This document shows, piece after piece, positions 24,661 to 31,437 of a stretch of DNA of 64,000 bases. Source of the stretch: Prevotella sp. HUN102 (GTDB taxonomy: Bacteria > Bacteroidota > Bacteroidia > Bacteroidales > Bacteroidaceae); the NCBI RefSeq assembly GCF_000688375.1, contig NZ_JIAF01000001.1, forward strand, positions 558,001 to 622,000, written 5' to 3'. Numbering within the stretch: the stretch's first letter is position 1; every line of letters starts with the position of its first letter. The position numbers were made by a program, and so were the translations under genes. The notes under the pieces were generated by a model. The model was not told where the DNA came from and ran no database searches. It saw only the letters and a program-made list of their open reading frames with translations.

Positions 24661-25683
24661 ATGAAATTTAAATTTCTTTCATTATTCAGAATTAGAAAAT
24701 CGCAAGACAGCTTTCATACAAAGGCAAAGAAGGTACAAAAGACACCAACTACTTTCGGTTCCTTTCTAAATACAGCATCAAAAGGCCTCAGCATATCTAC
24801 AAAGCAAAATTATGAAACAGCTGTACGGTCATTCATCCGTTTCTCTAATGGGAAAGATATTTCCCTTGCTCAGCTCAGTAGTGAATATATCAAGGCTTAC
24901 GAACGATGGATGAGAGACAACAATGTCTGTCTCAATACATCTTCCTGTTATCTCCGCTCGCTACGTGCCATTTACAACAAAGCTGTGCTTCAACGGAAAA
25001 TCAAGGATTACAAGCCCTTTGACAAAGCTTTCACTGGCAATGAAAAAACTGCTAAACGATGCATCACCGAGAATGAGATACGAAAGATTAAAGCAACGGG
25101 TATCAACAACAAAAGTTTTAAAAGAAAGCTTACCTGCGATCTATTTTTATTCTCTTTTTATGCAATGGGAATGCCATTCGTCGATATGGCAAATCTTAGA
25201 CAGCATCAAATAAAAGACGGAATACTGACATATTATCGCCGAAAAACAGGCAAACAAGTGAGAGTGAAGATTGAACAATGTATGCAGGATATCATTTTAC
25301 GATATACCACAGAGAAGTCCGATTACGTTTTTCCTATTCTATATAAAATAATAAATAAGAAAATAAGAAAACGCACCTATTCCACTGCGCTCAACCTATA
25401 CAACCAAAATCTGAAACGACTTGCACACGAAGCGAATATAGGCGTAGCACTTACTTCTTATATTTCCCGACATTCATGGGCAAGCATCGCTTACAGCCAT
25501 AACGTAGAGTTACCAGTAATATCGCAGGCTATGGGACATACAGATACCCAAACAACACTTATCTATATAAATGAAATAGGCGATAAGCAAATCGCACAAG
25601 CCAATCATAAAGTTTTGGAGGAAATATTTTCAAGAACTCTTGGTAAGAGGTGTTACACATTCTTAAAAACAATGCAAAGATAG
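24661..25683 (+). CDS. Tyrosine site-specific recombinase (Bacteroidetes integrase type)
   Basis: A 340-residue protein with a basic N-terminus, a SAM-like core-binding domain (about residues 35-135, SISTKQNYETAVRSFIRF and NTSSCYLRSLRAIYNKAVLQ) and a catalytic domain. Catalytic elements seen are the beta-hairpin lysine in YYRRKTGKQVRVKI, the arginine/histidine box TSYISRHSWAS, the GHTDTQTT histidine and the nucleophile tyrosine in LIYINEI. The family motif usually read RGMxFVDM is MGMPFVDM here, so the arginine commonly placed there is missing. The last 15 codons contain the left arm of an inverted repeat whose partner lies 165 bases downstream. This suggests the enzyme acts on the adjacent invertible promoter rather than on an integrated element. 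Confidence 0.88.
   Translation: MKFKFLSLFRIRKSQDSFHTKAKKVQKTPTTFGSFLNTASKGLSISTKQNYETAVRSFIRFSNGKDISLAQLSSEYIKAYERWMRDNNVCLNTSSCYLRSLRAIYNKAVLQRKIKDYKPFDKAFTGNEKTAKRCITENEIRKIKATGINNKSFKRKLTCDLFLFSFYAMGMPFVDMANLRQHQIKDGILTYYRRKTGKQVRVKIEQCMQDIILRYTTEKSDYVFPILYKIINKKIRKRTYSTALNLYNQNLKRLAHEANIGVALTSYISRHSWASIAYSHNVELPVISQAMGHTDTQTTLIYINEIGDKQIAQANHKVLEEIFSRTLGKRCYTFLKTMQR
25637..25651 (+). repeat. Left inverted repeat of the putative invertible promoter segment
   Basis: CTCTTGGTAAGAGGT, inside the 3' end of the recombinase gene. Its exact reverse complement is at 25817-25831. The core is itself nearly symmetric (CTCTT-GGT-AAGAG), as expected for a site bound by two recombinase monomers, with an asymmetric GGT centre giving direction. 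Confidence 0.85.
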
Positions 25684-25706
25684 ACCTTTTTTTCCATACT
25701 TACAAA
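25675..25706 (-). promoter_or_regulatory. Promoter inside the invertible segment, facing the recombinase gene (OFF orientation)
   Basis: The minus strand reads TTTG (25703-25706), 20 bases, then TATCTTTG (25675-25682) and CA, a near-perfect Bacteroidetes promoter. As assembled it fires leftwards, antisense to the recombinase gene. After inversion between the repeats the -7 box would lie at 25786-25793, pointing right, about 66 bases before the ATG at 25860. Confidence 0.7.
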
Positions 25707-25816
25707 TAAATTCTGAAAAAATTACTATTCCACAATGAAATCCTAATATAAGAATATCCTAACTATACCTTAATATTATAACCAATTATTTTCTAGGTCA
25801 TTTAGAGATTATTCAT

Positions 25817-25831
25817 ACCTCTTACCAAGAG
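25817..25831 (-). repeat. Right inverted repeat of the putative invertible promoter segment
   Basis: ACCTCTTACCAAGAG, exact reverse complement of 25637-25651, ending 28 bases before the ATG of the 39-codon gene. The 9-mer CAAGAGGTA spanning its right edge recurs in the same orientation at 26045-26053. Confidence 0.85.
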
Positions 25832-25859
25832 GTAAACTAAATATTTTAACAATATTTCT

Positions 25860-25979
25860 ATGGAAAAAAATAAAAAACAGACATATCTCCAACCTCAAAT
25901 CAGCATTATAGCCGTAGAGAAAGAGACCCCAATGTTTGCCACTGAATGGAGTACACCACTCAAACAGAAAACAACATAA
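25860..25979 (+). CDS. Short peptide gene (39 residues), first member of a peptide pair
   Basis: ATG at 25860 to TAA at 25977-25979. The product begins MEKNKKQTYLQPQISIIAVE and ends EWSTPLKQKTT. Its centre, KxxYLxPQISIIAVE, resembles the 64-residue product at 29020 (KKKYIAPQTEIIQLN): a lysine-rich start, then Y-[LI]-x-P-Q, then an isoleucine/valine strand and an acidic residue. Similar very short proteins, with a lysine-rich start and a YxxPxxxVVxxE core, are frequent in Bacteroidales next to surface-protein genes and have no assigned function. There is no signal peptide or membrane helix. It is the first gene to the right of the invertible segment, so it would lead the switched transcript. 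The start is supported only by position and similarity. Confidence 0.55.
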   Translation: MEKNKKQTYLQPQISIIAVEKETPMFATEWSTPLKQKTT

Positions 25980-26051
25980 TCACTTGTAAACCATAGTAAC
26001 TACAAGAAAAGATCTGTATTACCAAAAGAAGTAAAAGTAGAGCACAAGAGG

Positions 26052-26080
26052 TAGCTGACAAGTACGATACTTGTCAGCTA
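26052..26080. other. Perfect hairpin between the short peptide gene and the HU-like gene
   Basis: 13-bp perfect arms (26052-26064 and 26068-26080), TAGCTGACAAGTA and its complement, with a 3-base CGA loop. No U-tract follows, so it is probably not a simple terminator. It could protect or process the RNA between the two genes, or be a protein-binding site. Confidence 0.7.
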
Positions 26081-26154
26081 TAAGTTGCATACTTATGAAG
26101 TACTACTTCCTTACTTGTTGAAAAGCTAACTAATAACTTCATAAAAATAAGATT

Positions 26155-26619
26155 ATGGCATTTTACAAAAAAGTATTGAAGAAAATCAACAACAAATGGT
26201 ACCCACAATCGGTACTCGTGGGTAAGCCTATTACAACCGAGCAAATTGCAAAGCGACTTGCCACAGAATCAACTGTAAGCCCTGCCGACGTACGAGCAGT
26301 GCTTACTGCTCTTGGCAGTGTGATGGGCGACTATATGGCACAGGGACGTTCCGTAAAATTAGACGGCATAGGTACATTCTATTTCACTGCTACTGCATCC
26401 AAGAATGGTGTAGAAACAAAGGAAAAAGTTACAGCCAATCAAATCAATGGCGTGCGAGTACGTTTCGTGCCGGAGACCTATTTCCGTCGTACATCAGGCA
26501 CCAGGATTGCCACACGCACCTTGACCGATACCAACATCTATTGGGAAGAATGGCATGAGACTGACGAACCAAATCACTCCAGTAAGGATTCTGAATCAGA
26601 AGAGGACTCTAATCCATAA
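26155..26619 (+). CDS. HU-like DNA-binding protein (HU-HIG type)
   Basis: A 154-residue protein. Residues about 1-125 are the Bacteroidetes HU-related domain: AFYKKVLKKINNKWYPQSV, LVGKPITTEQIAKRLATEST, SVKLDGIGTFYFTATASKNG, VRVRFVPETYFRR. A C-terminal acidic-serine tail (NHSSKDSESEEDSN) follows. HU-family proteins bend and compact DNA and often assist site-specific recombination. Location beside a tyrosine recombinase and invertible segment suggests it helps form the recombination complex or regulates the module, which is an inference. It lies 175 bases after the short peptide gene, separated by a hairpin. Confidence 0.85.
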   Translation: MAFYKKVLKKINNKWYPQSVLVGKPITTEQIAKRLATESTVSPADVRAVLTALGSVMGDYMAQGRSVKLDGIGTFYFTATASKNGVETKEKVTANQINGVRVRFVPETYFRRTSGTRIATRTLTDTNIYWEEWHETDEPNHSSKDSESEEDSNP

Positions 26620-26845
26620 CAAGGAAGGAAAAGCGTTTAGTTTCTCAATGAAAAGATCGATTTACAGCCAATTGGATATTCATAAAATGATTATTATCCA
26701 CTTGAAATCATTTTACTGGTTGTTAATATTTCCATATCAGAAAACTTACTGTAAATCAACACATTCCATTTACAAACAACTGTCATTCTGCAGATAATTT
26801 ACAAAACAATAAAATTTTATACAATATTCTTTTAAAACATCTTTT

Positions 26846-28996
26846 ATGAATAAAAATTATTTACAACGAGCGTTATTTTCGCTTATGCTTTTAGTTTCAG
26901 CAACATGGGCAAGAGGACAAGTCAATTCAGGGCAAGACCAGTTGATATTCCATGAGACATTCGATAAGAATTACAACATTGACTTTACCGGTACATCAGC
27001 AGGTTCTGGTTTCGGAGGCTTGTTCGGTGCTTGGACTTGGGACAGCGATGACTACTGGGTGAATAACAGAGACCATTCATCTGGAGGATGGGGGTTTTAT
27101 AAAATGGGACCTGGTCTGAATAGTGTCGTTATGAGAGAGAATGGTGGATACATTACAACTAAACAGCTTGGAGAGATAGATAAAAAAGTCAATGGACGAA
27201 CTTTTCCCGACAAGGATGACATTACGGTAAAGATTAAAATCGGAAAGCCTTTTGGATTGGTAAACTTGCAGGCAGGCATCATCTCAGCAATTTTCAAGAT
27301 ATTTCCTCGTATTACCAATATTAACCTCAAAGGAGCAGGACCCGACACGAAGTGTAGCGCAGACCATCTTTCGATGGGCGGTTGGCGTACAACCTTTTTC
27401 GGCTCTACAACCAAAACCTTCGAAATCAGAAATGCAACGCCGACAACACAGGTCCAGTTTGTAGGCAATATCCAAACCTGTATTTACGACATCCGTTTCT
27501 ATCGTGAAGGAAGACCAACTGACAAGATTTGGAATATTGATGACATAGATGGCAGCATCATAGGAGAAGCCTCTGGTTGGATGTATGGTTATGTGACCCG
27601 TGTAGAAACTCAAAAACATAAGGTTAAGGTCATGGAGGGCGGAAAGGAAGTAGAAAAAGATGAAAACATCTATACCTTGATTATCAGAAAAGACTTCAAC
27701 GATTTCAGTAAGGAAGTGGCAGTTCCTCTCTACAACAAGACATTTGAAATCAAGAAGAAAGCTATAACCTTAGAGGAAGCAAAAGAATTGCCTTTCAGTG
27801 CAGAACAGTATGTGGGTATCAATAAACTTAAAAACATTCATTCAGCTGGAGATTTAATAAACAGCAAGGTTCTGTTCCACGCAACATTCAACAAAGATAC
27901 GGGACAAAAACTCTACAGATGGCTTGATGACAAGAAAAAGAATTGGGAATATATAGACAACTGGAAAGAACCAGTAGCTGATGTCGACCGAATGCTCGTC
28001 ATGACCCCTCTATACTCTGAGTTGACAGATTATCGTATGAAGGATAGTGACATCAAATATATGAATTCCGTATTCTCATTCGATGGTAAAGGTGTCATAA
28101 ATGGAAAGGAATATGATGGAGTTTCAAAAAATCATCTGTTCTATGTCCTTAATACCTCCGATGATGCCGTACGCGAGATAGATAATGTTATTTCCGTTCA
28201 CTATGATGCCATAAATGCTGGAAACGACGATACTTCCTTGGCAAGTCTTCCTAATCAAGGGACAGCAACAAAAATTTCACTGACAGATGCGGGAAACAAT
28301 AAGGATTTTTGGAACTTGTACGACGCAGAGGTAGCCGGAAACCTTCCTACATTCGACCGTGACATCAGCAAGAATGGTTCTGTAAAATCTTTCATCTCTC
28401 CATTTGATGTAACTTACGACAAGGATGCTTTCACAGCATATTCATTCAACCCCTCCAACGTTTCCTATACCAAAAGTACAGCACGCATCATAATGAAAGA
28501 AACAATAGATAATCCACTTAAAGCCAATCATCCATATATGCTTGTGCCTAAAAATCCTAATGACGGATATCAAGTCATTGCAGCAAACAGCAAAATTGCA
28601 ATATCAGAGTTTCCGACAAAACGTACAGGTTGGACTCTCACAGGTACATTTCGTAAACTCAGCAATGCTGAAGCTGCAAAATATGGAGCAGTAGTGCTAA
28701 GCAATGGTAAGCTCTATGCAATTGAAAGTGGAACTGACAGCTATGTGCCTGCATTAAGAAGTTTCATAGAGAGTGCTCCTGGCTTTGAGGTAAAACCAAC
28801 AACTGCCGGTGTCAAAAGTTTTATCCTTTCTTTCCAGTCTCTCGATGCAGAGGGAACGACTAGTGTTGAGAATCTGTCGTTCGCAGACAAGAAGCCTTTG
28901 CCAATCTATTCCATCAATGGTGTTTACCTCGGAACTGATTTTGATGCTTTGCCCAAAGGCATATACATTGTAAATAACCACAAGATAGCTAAATAA
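26846..28996 (+). CDS. Large secreted protein of unknown function with a C-terminal sorting-like domain
   Basis: A 716-residue protein with a clear signal peptide (MNKNYLQRALFSLMLLVSATWARG|Q). The N-terminal third is rich in glycine, aromatics and beta-strands (LIFHETFDKNYNIDF, GGLFGAWTWDSDDYWVNNRD), reminiscent of a jelly-roll or carbohydrate-binding fold. The central region is lysine-rich. The last ~45 residues (VENLSFADKK, PIYSINGVYLGTDFDALPKG, IYIVNNHKIAK) look like the short C-terminal tails seen on Prevotella surface proteins and on type IX secretion cargo. No catalytic motif is recognised. It lies 227 bases after the HU-like gene and 23 bases before the second peptide gene, so it is probably the main exported product of the island. 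Confidence 0.75.
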   Translation: MNKNYLQRALFSLMLLVSATWARGQVNSGQDQLIFHETFDKNYNIDFTGTSAGSGFGGLFGAWTWDSDDYWVNNRDHSSGGWGFYKMGPGLNSVVMRENGGYITTKQLGEIDKKVNGRTFPDKDDITVKIKIGKPFGLVNLQAGIISAIFKIFPRITNINLKGAGPDTKCSADHLSMGGWRTTFFGSTTKTFEIRNATPTTQVQFVGNIQTCIYDIRFYREGRPTDKIWNIDDIDGSIIGEASGWMYGYVTRVETQKHKVKVMEGGKEVEKDENIYTLIIRKDFNDFSKEVAVPLYNKTFEIKKKAITLEEAKELPFSAEQYVGINKLKNIHSAGDLINSKVLFHATFNKDTGQKLYRWLDDKKKNWEYIDNWKEPVADVDRMLVMTPLYSELTDYRMKDSDIKYMNSVFSFDGKGVINGKEYDGVSKNHLFYVLNTSDDAVREIDNVISVHYDAINAGNDDTSLASLPNQGTATKISLTDAGNNKDFWNLYDAEVAGNLPTFDRDISKNGSVKSFISPFDVTYDKDAFTAYSFNPSNVSYTKSTARIIMKETIDNPLKANHPYMLVPKNPNDGYQVIAANSKIAISEFPTKRTGWTLTGTFRKLSNAEAAKYGAVVLSNGKLYAIESGTDSYVPALRSFIESAPGFEVKPTTAGVKSFILSFQSLDAEGTTSVENLSFADKKPLPIYSINGVYLGTDFDALPKGIYIVNNHKIAK

Positions 28997-29019
28997 TAAC
29001 ATTAAAATATAGAACAATT

Positions 29020-29214
29020 ATGAACAAGAAAAAATATATAGCACCACAGACAGAGATAATACAGCTGAATACTGGAGAAATTCTCGAAGGGCCTTTGGAC
29101 TTAGGCTCCATTCAAGGTGATCCGAAAGGGCTTGGAGGTGAAGGCAGCACTCATCCCGTTGATGCCAAAGAAAACAACTTTCAGTACGAACCATATGAAG
29201 TGTGGAAGGATTAA
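29020..29214 (+). CDS. Short peptide gene (64 residues), second member of the peptide pair
   Basis: Product starts MNKKKYIAPQTEIIQLNTGE, then a glycine- and acid-rich tail (GPLDLGSIQGDPKGLGGEG, AKENNFQYEPYEVWKD). The first ~20 residues match the pattern of the 39-residue peptide at 25860 (lysines, Y-[LI]-x-P-Q, I-I). A conserved head with a variable Gly/Asp-rich tail is the layout of many small Bacteroidales proteins of unknown role, and superficially also of a leader-core peptide. No modification enzyme is encoded nearby, so a RiPP role is not supported. It starts 23 bases after the secreted-protein gene and is followed by a strong hairpin. Confidence 0.7.
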   Translation: MNKKKYIAPQTEIIQLNTGEILEGPLDLGSIQGDPKGLGGEGSTHPVDAKENNFQYEPYEVWKD

Positions 29215-29236
29215 ACTGAAACACTAATAAAAACTT

Positions 29237-29279
29237 ATCCCTTATGGTTTGCCAAAACAATCTGCAAATCATAAGGGAT
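29237..29279 (+). terminator. Hairpin between the second peptide gene and the lipoprotein gene (partial terminator or attenuator)
   Basis: 16-bp arms (29237-29252 and 29264-29279) with one G-T pair and an 11-base loop, followed by TACATTTATTC. The U-tract is weak, so it may attenuate rather than stop transcription into the lipoprotein gene that starts 16 bases later. Confidence 0.6.
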
Positions 29280-29295
29280 TACATTTATTCACAAA

Positions 29296-31167
29296 ATGAA
29301 ACAACTAAAGAAATATATTCTCAATTCAGTGATCATCCTGACAGCCGGGATGACTTTCTACGCCTGTTCCTCTGACAAAGATGAGCTTTTTGACAAAATT
29401 TCTACAACACAGGAAACAACGACAGTCAGCAATATAACAGGAACAATACTGACACCAAAGACTGATTATCCTGATTCTAAAACACACAAAATGCCAACAA
29501 AGGCGTTTCTCATAGGGGCTGATGCCGATGTTCCTGGAATACTGTCAAGTAGTCGATTCACAGCACATTGCCTTATCAAGGTAGCTGGCGATGATGGCAT
29601 AAAACACACAGAAGTAACTATGTCGGCTAAGAGTTCTTCTGACGGTAAGTATACCATTATCGTACAGGATGCCGGAAAAGTGTTCCATAACGCCGTAAAG
29701 CGTAATCCATATGCCAATGAGGAATGGGAAATGGCTATCATTGCCGGTGGTGGAAAATGGGACGAGAGCAGCAAGCGTGTAATCTTCGCAATAGAAGGAA
29801 ATGACGGTGTTTCATCTCACGAAGTCAATCACTTGATTGCACCGTTGACAACAAATTGGACGAAAGTTACAACCAATGGCGATGGCAGCTACAATGTAAA
29901 GTTGATTTTTTCCATCAGAGGAACACTCGTGAGATTAAATGTCAACAACGAGCGTACAGAGGCCTTTCGTGGTGCCGTACGTCTGAATTCAAAGGCACTC
30001 TGCCGTAATATATATTTTGACATGAGTTCGCCAAGTCACAACGGACAATTGGTATGGAAACCACTTGCAAAATATGATAAACCGACCATAGTGACCAACA
30101 GTGCTGTTCCTGCACGCTACGCAAAGCAATTTATATTTTGGGGTATGCCTACAAATGAGCAGACAGAGGCTGAAAATGAATTTACGCCAGATCAGTATGG
30201 TTATACATTCATAAATGAAACCAACGATGAACTGTATCGGCGCAAGGGTGATTTCAAGGAAGGGAAATCAACCAATCTTTCCTTACGCATCGCCAATATC
30301 AAACTGCCGATTGAATACTTTGATAAGAATAACTATACGAGGCATTCCAAATGGGCATTTACAAACACTTCATATAATAACCAGTCATATTATGTCTACA
30401 ACCGGGCCTTGGACATTCTTACCGACTTAGACAAGCAGAATAAGGACTGGCATGTGCCAAGCGTTTTTGAATGGGCTGCCATTGTCCCGCGTTCACACGG
30501 GTATACAGAAGAAGCTGCTTCTCGTCCGCTCATTTATCTTGATGGTAAGAGCAATCATCGTAAACGTATGGAGCAAAATGAGGAAGTGGAAAGTCCACGA
30601 AATAACTTTACCACTTATCGTTCAGAATATATCAACATTAGAAAGGGTGTAAACTATGCCGTACGATTTGCACCCCCAACTGCAAAGGTACGTTGGCGAA
30701 GTGCTGCGAGCTACAATGCTTCCTTCCATTCCAAGCCAATACCTTTTGCCAAAGATTATCGATACTATTCAGCTTATAAATATGAAGTTGTAGAGGATGC
30801 CGGAAACGGGCAGCGAGGGCTTCTTGTTACCGTACGCTATTTAGGAGAAGGTGGGAAGCATATAACCTTAAAAGATATTAACGATGAATTCTGGAACAAT
30901 CCTGCACCATCGGGTATCAATGATGTTAAGATATCTTTCCCCTTCTATGGCTATATGGATCAAGGCATCATTAATAAGAAAGTGAAGCAACAAGGAGAAG
31001 CCTGCTATTATTGGACGGTTACTCCCGGAGGCTCACTTGTTCCTCTGGGAGGTTGGATGACTTACATTACTGCTGCGCGTTCTATCAGTTTGCGAGACTA
31101 TCAACTCAATGAAACTCACGACGGCCGACAATACAGATATCTGCTTCGACTTGTGTCCTCTAAATAA
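29296..31167 (+). CDS. Putative surface lipoprotein, possibly fimbrial-associated
   Basis: A 623-residue protein with a lipoprotein signal (MKQLKKYILNSVIILTAGMTFYAC|SSDKDE). The acidic residues after the cysteine resemble the surface-export signals of Bacteroidetes lipoproteins. The N-terminal half is beta-rich (SNITGTILTPKTDYPDS, NLSLRIANIKLP). The C-terminal half contains KDWHVPSVFEWAAIVP and later VRWRSAASYN, reminiscent of the FISUMP/fimbrial tip-type domains where an 'xxPTxxEWxxA' motif is common. No enzyme motif is seen. Position at the end of the switched cluster suggests an exported or adhesive component; a fimbrillin-like or tip role is inference only. Confidence 0.65.
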   Translation: MKQLKKYILNSVIILTAGMTFYACSSDKDELFDKISTTQETTTVSNITGTILTPKTDYPDSKTHKMPTKAFLIGADADVPGILSSSRFTAHCLIKVAGDDGIKHTEVTMSAKSSSDGKYTIIVQDAGKVFHNAVKRNPYANEEWEMAIIAGGGKWDESSKRVIFAIEGNDGVSSHEVNHLIAPLTTNWTKVTTNGDGSYNVKLIFSIRGTLVRLNVNNERTEAFRGAVRLNSKALCRNIYFDMSSPSHNGQLVWKPLAKYDKPTIVTNSAVPARYAKQFIFWGMPTNEQTEAENEFTPDQYGYTFINETNDELYRRKGDFKEGKSTNLSLRIANIKLPIEYFDKNNYTRHSKWAFTNTSYNNQSYYVYNRALDILTDLDKQNKDWHVPSVFEWAAIVPRSHGYTEEAASRPLIYLDGKSNHRKRMEQNEEVESPRNNFTTYRSEYINIRKGVNYAVRFAPPTAKVRWRSAASYNASFHSKPIPFAKDYRYYSAYKYEVVEDAGNGQRGLLVTVRYLGEGGKHITLKDINDEFWNNPAPSGINDVKISFPFYGYMDQGIINKKVKQQGEACYYWTVTPGGSLVPLGGWMTYITAARSISLRDYQLNETHDGRQYRYLLRLVSSK

Positions 31168-31204
31168 GACATACATATTTTCTAACAAAGATTAGTCATC
31201 AGGG

Positions 31205-31267
31205 GCGAAGGTGTGATAATAGTTTTTAAATTGTATAAACTAACCGTAAAATCTTTTCAGCCTTCGC
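31205..31267 (+). other. Structured leader in front of a small membrane-protein gene
   Basis: Nested inverted repeats: GCGAAGG (31205-31211) with CCTTCGC (31261-31267), enclosing TAGTTT (31220-31225) with AAACTA (31237-31242). It lies 20 bases before the ATG at 31288 and could be a structured 5' leader or the end of the lipoprotein transcript. Confidence 0.4.
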
Positions 31268-31287
31268 TCCATTATATCTAAAAAATT

Positions 31288-31437
31288 ATGGCTAAAAGAT
31301 ATACCAGTTTTATTTATGAAAGAAGAATGAGGAAAAGACAAAGAATACATAAGATAAAACTATTTGTTTTTTATTTCCTGATTATCATTTCAATCATTAT
31401 CCTGTTATGGTGTGCCTATCTTTACAGCTATGATTGA
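31288..31437 (+). CDS. Small single-span membrane protein (49 residues)
   Basis: ATG at 31288 to TGA at 31435-31437. The product has a strongly basic N-terminus (MAKRYTSFIYERRMRKRQRI) followed by one hydrophobic helix (FVFYFLIIISIIILLWCAYL), and ends SYD. By the positive-inside rule the basic part should be cytoplasmic. No family is recognised. It is the last gene of the island and lies 120 bases after the lipoprotein gene. Small basic one-helix proteins include regulators of envelope complexes and type I toxins, but no antisense RNA or other support for a toxin is seen. It is too short to be certain that it is translated. Confidence 0.45.
   Translation: MAKRYTSFIYERRMRKRQRIHKIKLFVFYFLIIISIIILLWCAYLYSYD

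Follow-up and report, generated by a model that had tools for sequence, protein, structure and literature searches.

Positions 25637 to 25831 of the 64,000-nucleotide stretch of Prevotella sp. HUN102 DNA analysed here (the window) constitute, with a probability that we put at roughly 0.87, an invertible promoter, operated by a recombinase and assembled in its OFF orientation, that serves a phase-variable surface locus to the right. A sequence-only reading of the window had proposed such an OFF promoter, worked by the adjacent tyrosine recombinase, and comparison with related loci strongly supports it. What that reading overlooked is that the left repeat and the −7 box both sit inside the recombinase open reading frame (ORF), and the segment is therefore not purely intergenic. 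Promoter switches of surface genes are well known in this bacterial group; the unusual part here is that a link between the state of the switch and the recombinase is built in. Comparison also documents this phase switch in a genome of the Prevotella type, where it lies apart from the usual capsule loci. Its features are collected in Table 1; labels beginning with L denote individual loci.

Table 1. Features of the switch locus and of the genes to its right, in window coordinates
Feature	Position	Strand	Basis or remark
Tyrosine recombinase ORF, 340 aa as assembled (OFF)	24661–25683	+	Phage_int_SAM_5 4e-15, Phage_integrase 5e-12; end within the putative invertible segment
Left putative recombination site, CTCTTGGTAAGAGGT	25637–25651	+	Core CTCTT-GGT-AAGAG at 25637–25649; codes for LGKR of the recombinase
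Putative invertible segment, 195 bp, 165 bp between arms	25637–25831	.	Homologous segments in relatives
Promoter TTTG-N20-TATCTTTG, aimed into recombinase (OFF)	25675–25706	−	Stop codon of the recombinase (CAA AGA TAG) comes from the −7 box read in reverse
Predicted place of promoter once inverted (ON)	25762–25793	+	Computed flip; −7 box at 25786–25793
Right putative recombination site, inverted copy of left	25817–25831	−	Palindrome reaches 25833
39-aa gene, first past the switch; loose family of short YxxP peptides	25860–25979	+	Comparable first peptides in L085, L087, L088, L093
Strong RNA hairpin, 14-bp stem, between 39-aa and HU genes	26051–26081	+	−25.7 kcal/mol, z −6.45
HU-family DNA-binding protein (HU-HIG), 154 aa	26155–26619	+	PF18291 9e-23; TIGR01201 1e-31
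Exported protein, 716 aa	26846–28996	+	Pfam: no match
Short YxxP peptide gene, 64 aa	29020–29214	+	Sequence pattern
Putative surface lipoprotein, 623 aa	29296–31167	+	Lipobox FYAC-SSDKDE by eye; Fib_succ_major weak, sub-threshold

The inverted repeats

Perfect 15-bp inverted repeats had been noticed at 25637–25651 and 25817–25831, and both the coordinates and the full complementarity hold. So does the description of a near-palindromic core with an asymmetric GGT/ACC centre: the right arm reads ACCTCTT-ACC-AAGAGGT, and the left arm falls short of this by one mismatch. In 2000 dinucleotide shuffles of a 660-bp region, a 15-bp inverted repeat with arms 60–500 bp apart did not arise once (0/2000), and the pair is not, on this measure, a product of chance. 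The window contains further 15-bp inverted repeats within 2 kb, mostly short hairpins together with one pair about 1 kb apart, and the significance of the pair at 25637–25831 therefore comes from its context, not from length alone.

Could the repeats be, instead, attachment sites, the ends of a mobile element, or simply a palindrome bound by a regulator? The enzyme is integrase-like, and relatives of it (under 60% identity) occur in 46 plasmid and 16 phage-labelled records. The repeats are inverted, however, not direct; no gene lies between them apart from the tail of the recombinase; the motif ACCTCTTNNNAAGAG, sought across the whole genome, occurs at the switch locus and nowhere else; and two of the plasmid relatives, by their annotation, stand at the head of capsule loci with upxY and have repeats of the invertible type. 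No relative of the recombinase was found in viral contigs. We consider explanations of this kind extremely unlikely, and an invertible segment by far the better account of the repeats.

The promoter and its orientation

The promoter is on the minus strand, with its −33 box, TTTG, at 25706–25703 and its −7 box, TATCTTTG, at 25682–25675, aimed back at the recombinase gene just as first described. It has the form TTTG-N19-21-TAnnTTTG; the available text of one survey prints the Bacteroidales consensus as −33 TTTG and −7 TANNTTTGY (PMC8748976), and the −7 consensus appears likewise in that of PMC4747536. No other consensus Bacteroidales promoter lies near the segment. One on either strand turned up in 69 of 2000 dinucleotide shuffles of the 660-bp region, so its presence inside the segment is unlikely to be due to chance; the 64-kb window holds seven TTTG...TAnnTTTG promoters, both strands together. 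When the segment is flipped by computation, the −7 box lands at 25786–25793, 66 bases ahead of the ATG at 25860 that begins the 39-codon gene, as had been calculated before. Scans for sigma-70 promoters (30, against 22.9 in shuffles) and for terminators (8, against 5.3) were set aside as evidence.

From this arrangement, the working of the switch can be sketched. The adjacent tyrosine recombinase most likely binds both CTCTT-NNN-AAGAG sites and inverts the DNA between them. In the OFF orientation, as assembled, the promoter would fire leftward, with the right-hand genes silent and antisense transcription passing over the recombinase. In the ON orientation, it would drive the 39-codon gene from 66 bases upstream and, probably, transcription on through the HU gene and those of the exported protein and the lipoprotein, up to 31167; the recombinase tail would be shorter, and the antisense transcription gone. 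The flip is argued from comparison with relatives, and its regulatory consequences are what we infer from the flip.

Related loci

A search of the genus covered 398 genomes, 120 of them with a match at 1e-40, and a smaller search covered 60 genomes. The scan of genome contigs yielded 41 loci, and all searches together 96 for a rule-based repeat test. Short or second copies (L002–L013, L031, L051–L053, L079–L084), pattern hits (L076–L078), fragments (L124, L125) and two loci unmatched at 1e-5 (L026, L027) were dropped before the tally; near-copies arriving from both collections stayed in it. The test found a repeat in 36 loci and none in 56; the other four were too short. Conservation of the repeats in relatives, on which the sequence-only reading had staked its proposal, is upheld where the recombinases are closest: at scores of 330 bits or more, paired sites are present in 14 of 14 loci, the window included. 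At 140–330 bits a repeat accompanies 21 of 68 (45 without, two too short), and below 140 bits one of 14, that one without a promoter (11 without, two too short). With 45 of 68 mid-score relatives repeat-free under the rule, either many homologues lack the local arrangement, therefore, or the rule missed it; L037 has a repeat pair beyond the range of the rule, with a rightward promoter.

The 14 best-scoring loci all have CTCTT-NNN-AAGAG core sites downstream of a homologous recombinase. Within a locus, the three-base centre is the same at both sites in all 20 of the site pairs (20 right-hand sites were read), while six different centres, GGT, GGG, GGC, GCT, GCG and ACG, occur among the loci. 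Matching within loci and varying between them is how a crossover region would be expected to behave. In each of the 14, 38–46 nt separate the end of the −7 box from the outer edge of an arm, with promoter-like matches at 8–10 of 10 positions, and two or three right-hand sites are present in L085, L087, L088, L091 and L097. The recombinase ORF encloses the whole left site at 12 of these 14 loci; the site spans the stop codon in L091 and follows it in L092. Switches of this kind, with a crossover site in the recombinase gene, are found in Prevotella, Alloprevotella, Phocaeicola and Bacteroides heparinolyticus. The inside-ORF label clusters when mapped on a tree of 82 recombinases (seven changes, against 18.2 in shuffles), and it occurs outside the main group too, for example in L108 and L121/L123.

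Both orientations are represented among these relatives. Of the 36 repeat loci, all but L054, L112, L118 and L028 could be given an orientation; of these 32, 29 are OFF and three, L091, L060 and L098, are ON. Two OFF calls are narrow ones: in L094 a rightward match far from the arm scores equally, and in L114 a rightward match near the arm scores slightly lower. Some of the loci share a genome (five belong to G024, five to B. heparinolyticus, and two other genomes supply two each), and L085 and L087 nearly duplicate each other; with such dependence among loci, the binomial P of 3e-6 overstates the bias toward OFF.

Several of the loci have peculiarities of their own. The single-contig genome G024 has 15 recombinase matches; the five that were read (L046–L050) use a different site, TTACTTTGTAAGTAA or TTACTTTGCAAGTAA, and are OFF in five cases out of five. 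L088, from Prevotella sp. DNF00663, has three right-hand sites, the outer two separated in the assembly by a stretch of N, which could stem from mixed orientations breaking the assembly. In another genome (G008), the genes immediately downstream of the switch L042 are very large and resemble, by eye, a defence system of helicase or restriction type.

Inversion between paralogues

B. heparinolyticus DSM 23917 carries five paralogous loci, L089–L092 and L095. The recombinase genes of L091 and L090 are identical at 900 of 966 nt, and their segments align with a score of 164 (159/234) when one of them is flipped, against 51 (120/224) when it is not. The segments of L090 and L092 have the same orientation (283 unflipped, 36 flipped), and that of L091 likewise aligns far better flipped with those of L089, L092 and L095. 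L091 is in the ON state, its promoter facing an operon that looks fimbrial. The comparison of L091 with L090 speaks for inversion of the element within the family, the window's own strain lying beyond its reach.

In that strain the repeats might be relics, with sites that no longer recombine and a promoter fixed leftward; there is one assembly, in a single orientation. Against this, the arms are perfect, their centres match, the fixed spacing is kept, and the recombinase ORF is open, with its RHSW, GHT and Tyr motifs aligned. We think decay very unlikely, and a switch that still inverts the probable state of affairs.

The DSM 23917 switches have four centres, GCT, GCG, ACG and GGC, and at least three of them stand ahead of operons that are, by eye, fimbrial-like. 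Possibly the differing centres insulate the five paralogous switches from one another. Homologous sites with differing three-base centres in one genome are, in effect, a natural test of crossover specificity.

The recombinase and its predicted alternative tails

The recombinase gene directly adjoins the segment and runs into it. Because the left site is within the ORF, inversion would swap the last 10 residues of the enzyme for two, and would take the antisense promoter off the 3' end of the gene. In the computed flip the C-terminus changes from ...LGKRCYTFLKTMQR (340 aa) to ...LGKRYE (332 aa), 10 residues beyond LGKR in the OFF state becoming two in the ON state. The flip was computed for seven loci, the window and six relatives, and alters the tail in every one of them; the overlap of −7 box and stop codon recurs in L085, L087, L088, L093 and L097. 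The AlphaFold model of the recombinase (mean pLDDT 79.1) continues beyond helix 308–323 with a helix, 325–339, of low confidence; the final two ten-residue blocks score 61 and 57. Past LGKR, the sequences of the tails are poorly conserved. Several of the proteins keep KR and Q eight codons apart, and on this account a role for the OFF tail at the protein level was considered; it was rejected, since the residues in between vary and the constraint is more simply the promoter's.

A further idea is that the state of the switch is written into the recombinase, two C-terminal isoforms and antisense silencing in the OFF state together setting the rate and direction of flipping and so giving the bias toward OFF. 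We offer this tentatively, and think it unlikely. A related version is that the switch mainly regulates the recombinase, whose activity would be lowered by the antisense RNA and long tail in the OFF state and raised by sense expression and the short tail in the ON state, bringing about a return to OFF; phase control of the genes to the right would then accompany this bias. The wholly in-ORF left sites of 12 of 14 close loci are what such a purpose might call for, as are the leftward promoters within or beside the recombinase gene in OFF loci, and the 29-to-3 tally; B. fragilis IVp-I, too, is mostly OFF, according to the available text of PMC4747536, and loses this bias upon plasmid complementation. 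The tails, however, are poorly conserved and, in the model, of low confidence, and the OFF bias may come instead from selection or shared descent, several loci sharing one genome. We are doubtful of this version, and retain the promoter switch for the right-hand genes as the primary reading. If the tails of the enzyme or the antisense promoter do matter, the locus would allow a direct test of how a switch biases its own direction, and it is this rewriting of the recombinase by the flip that is worth testing.

The protein cluster of the recombinase is confined to a single contig, the window's own. Members of the family share an AMG.PF.D stretch (residues 168–175), in which P172 is invariant among 23 aligned sequences. 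In most tyrosine recombinases the first catalytic arginine occurs at this position; to our knowledge, IntDOT-like Bacteroides integrases are likewise without it.

Genes to the right

The genes behind the promoter include putative surface and exported ones, recognized by eye from signal and lipobox sequences. The C-terminal tail of the 716-aa protein is one that we take, by eye, to resemble type IX sorting tails. This protein has a match in one of 398 genus genomes, the window's own; the 623-aa lipoprotein has one in the same single genome of the 398 and in one of 399 family genomes, with three other homologues in the protein database (1e-5). One homologue, P0124, and the recombinase P0002 have an equal longest contig (10970), a hint that the two may be linked. 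When both large proteins were compared with the large ORFs that follow the switch in 11 relatives, neither had a match. An HU-like gene is also found near L089, L090 and L093. The remaining cargo of the relatives, judged by eye without family searches, comprises fimbrial operons (L081/L096, L089–L091), BspA-like or T9SS-tailed proteins (L031, L082), and lipoproteins after short YxxP peptides (L085, L087, L088, L093).

These short peptides have Y-x-x-P near the N-terminus, and are often encoded first past the switch or directly ahead of a lipoprotein gene. The window's two match nothing in Pfam or NCBIfam; the window as a whole has seven NCBIfam matches. The 39-codon peptide is 31–34% identical to those of relatives, and aligning four of the peptides leaves five columns invariant, a likeness of pattern only that gives modest support to the gene as real.

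Each of the window's YxxP genes is followed by a hairpin without a U-run. The first, at 26051–26081, was the only copy found in the genome with up to three mismatches; the second, at 29237–29279, after the 64-codon gene, is also very strong (z −7.20). Possibly the two act in attenuation or mRNA processing. The first bears on how far transcription from the switch might extend: the segment could invert and yet its promoter serve the 39-codon gene only, the hairpin ending or attenuating the transcript and the later genes having promoters of their own. The exceptional stability of a hairpin directly after that gene fits this account, and the gaps of 175 and 226 bp ahead of the HU and exported-protein genes would leave space for promoters. 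The hairpin has no U-run behind it, however; a plus-strand TAnnTTTG, looked for across 25601–31400, was absent; and in B. heparinolyticus, P. brunnea and P. abscessus large exported-protein genes stand behind the switch, with no YxxP leader gene noticed. We judge so short a reach unlikely. That the segment is a phase switch for the genes to its right, as the sequence-only reading had it, is likely in view of the missing plus-strand box and of the fimbrial and lipoprotein cargo of relatives; its extension past the strong hairpin is the less secure part of that claim.

Relationship to known systems

In the E. coli fim switch, as in the window, a recombinase gene lies beside an invertible promoter element, and expression of fimE depends on orientation, an analogue of what is proposed here. 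The fim repeats are outside the recombinase genes. Fim has two recombinases, FimB and FimE, and type 1 pilus genes; the window has a single recombinase and other cargo. Mpi, the serine invertase of B. fragilis, also inverts promoters for surface variation, but it is a serine recombinase that acts on seven capsule promoters, whereas the window's enzyme, with its Phage_integrase match, is a tyrosine recombinase with one local pair of sites.

The nearest studied system is B. fragilis Tsr19 (PMC4747536, as far as its available text goes). The two have in common a local tyrosine recombinase, a TAnnTTTG promoter between inverted repeats directly downstream, and surface genes behind it, and OFF is the commoner state of IVp-I as well. 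The same text describes lower expression in B. fragilis where additional repeats stand between the promoter and the gene, and several relatives of the window, too, have two or three right-hand sites. Unlike the Tsr19 system, the window has one local switch, and it carries, in place of exopolysaccharide genes, genes for HU, an exported protein and a lipoprotein. The window's left site lies within the recombinase ORF, a possible further difference from Tsr19.

Inversions within coding sequences are reportedly the subject of work by Chanin et al. Overlap of an inverton with a gene is not new in itself, since 952 of 1837 invertons intersect a coding sequence in one survey (PMC11892184, available text), which notes new protein isoforms, and invertons near surface genes and invertases. 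A crossover site of an invertible promoter in its own recombinase gene is not described in that part of the survey, and no description of one was found in the available text of PMC4747536, PMC8748976, PMC11868660 and PMC2845655, the last two of which describe the fim switch in general terms, or in the accessible portion of the open-licence PMC literature. In at least one survey, invertible regions were discarded if they contained a coding sequence or overlapped one (PMC8748976, available text), and in-gene switches can therefore be missed.

Homologous recombinases (39–40% identity) are found at UpxY capsule loci in two Bacteroides plasmid records, L128 and L130, where inverted repeats span 208–227 bp, much as in the window. 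One pair in L128, ATCTCTT-AGC-AAGAGAT, has the window's pattern with the outer bases changed; the other pairs are looser variants. Unlike in the window, the left repeats of these loci are 136–667 bp past the stop codon, and two segments in tandem precede upxY; in place of the upxY antiterminator and glycan genes, the window has HU, exported-protein and lipoprotein genes. Two unannotated loci, L132 and L133, also have repeats past the stop codon, and L129 has none under the test. In L131, from an Alistipes plasmid, an arm at −62 to −44 is inside the ORF, and the in-ORF site is thus typical of the window's relatives without being confined to them.
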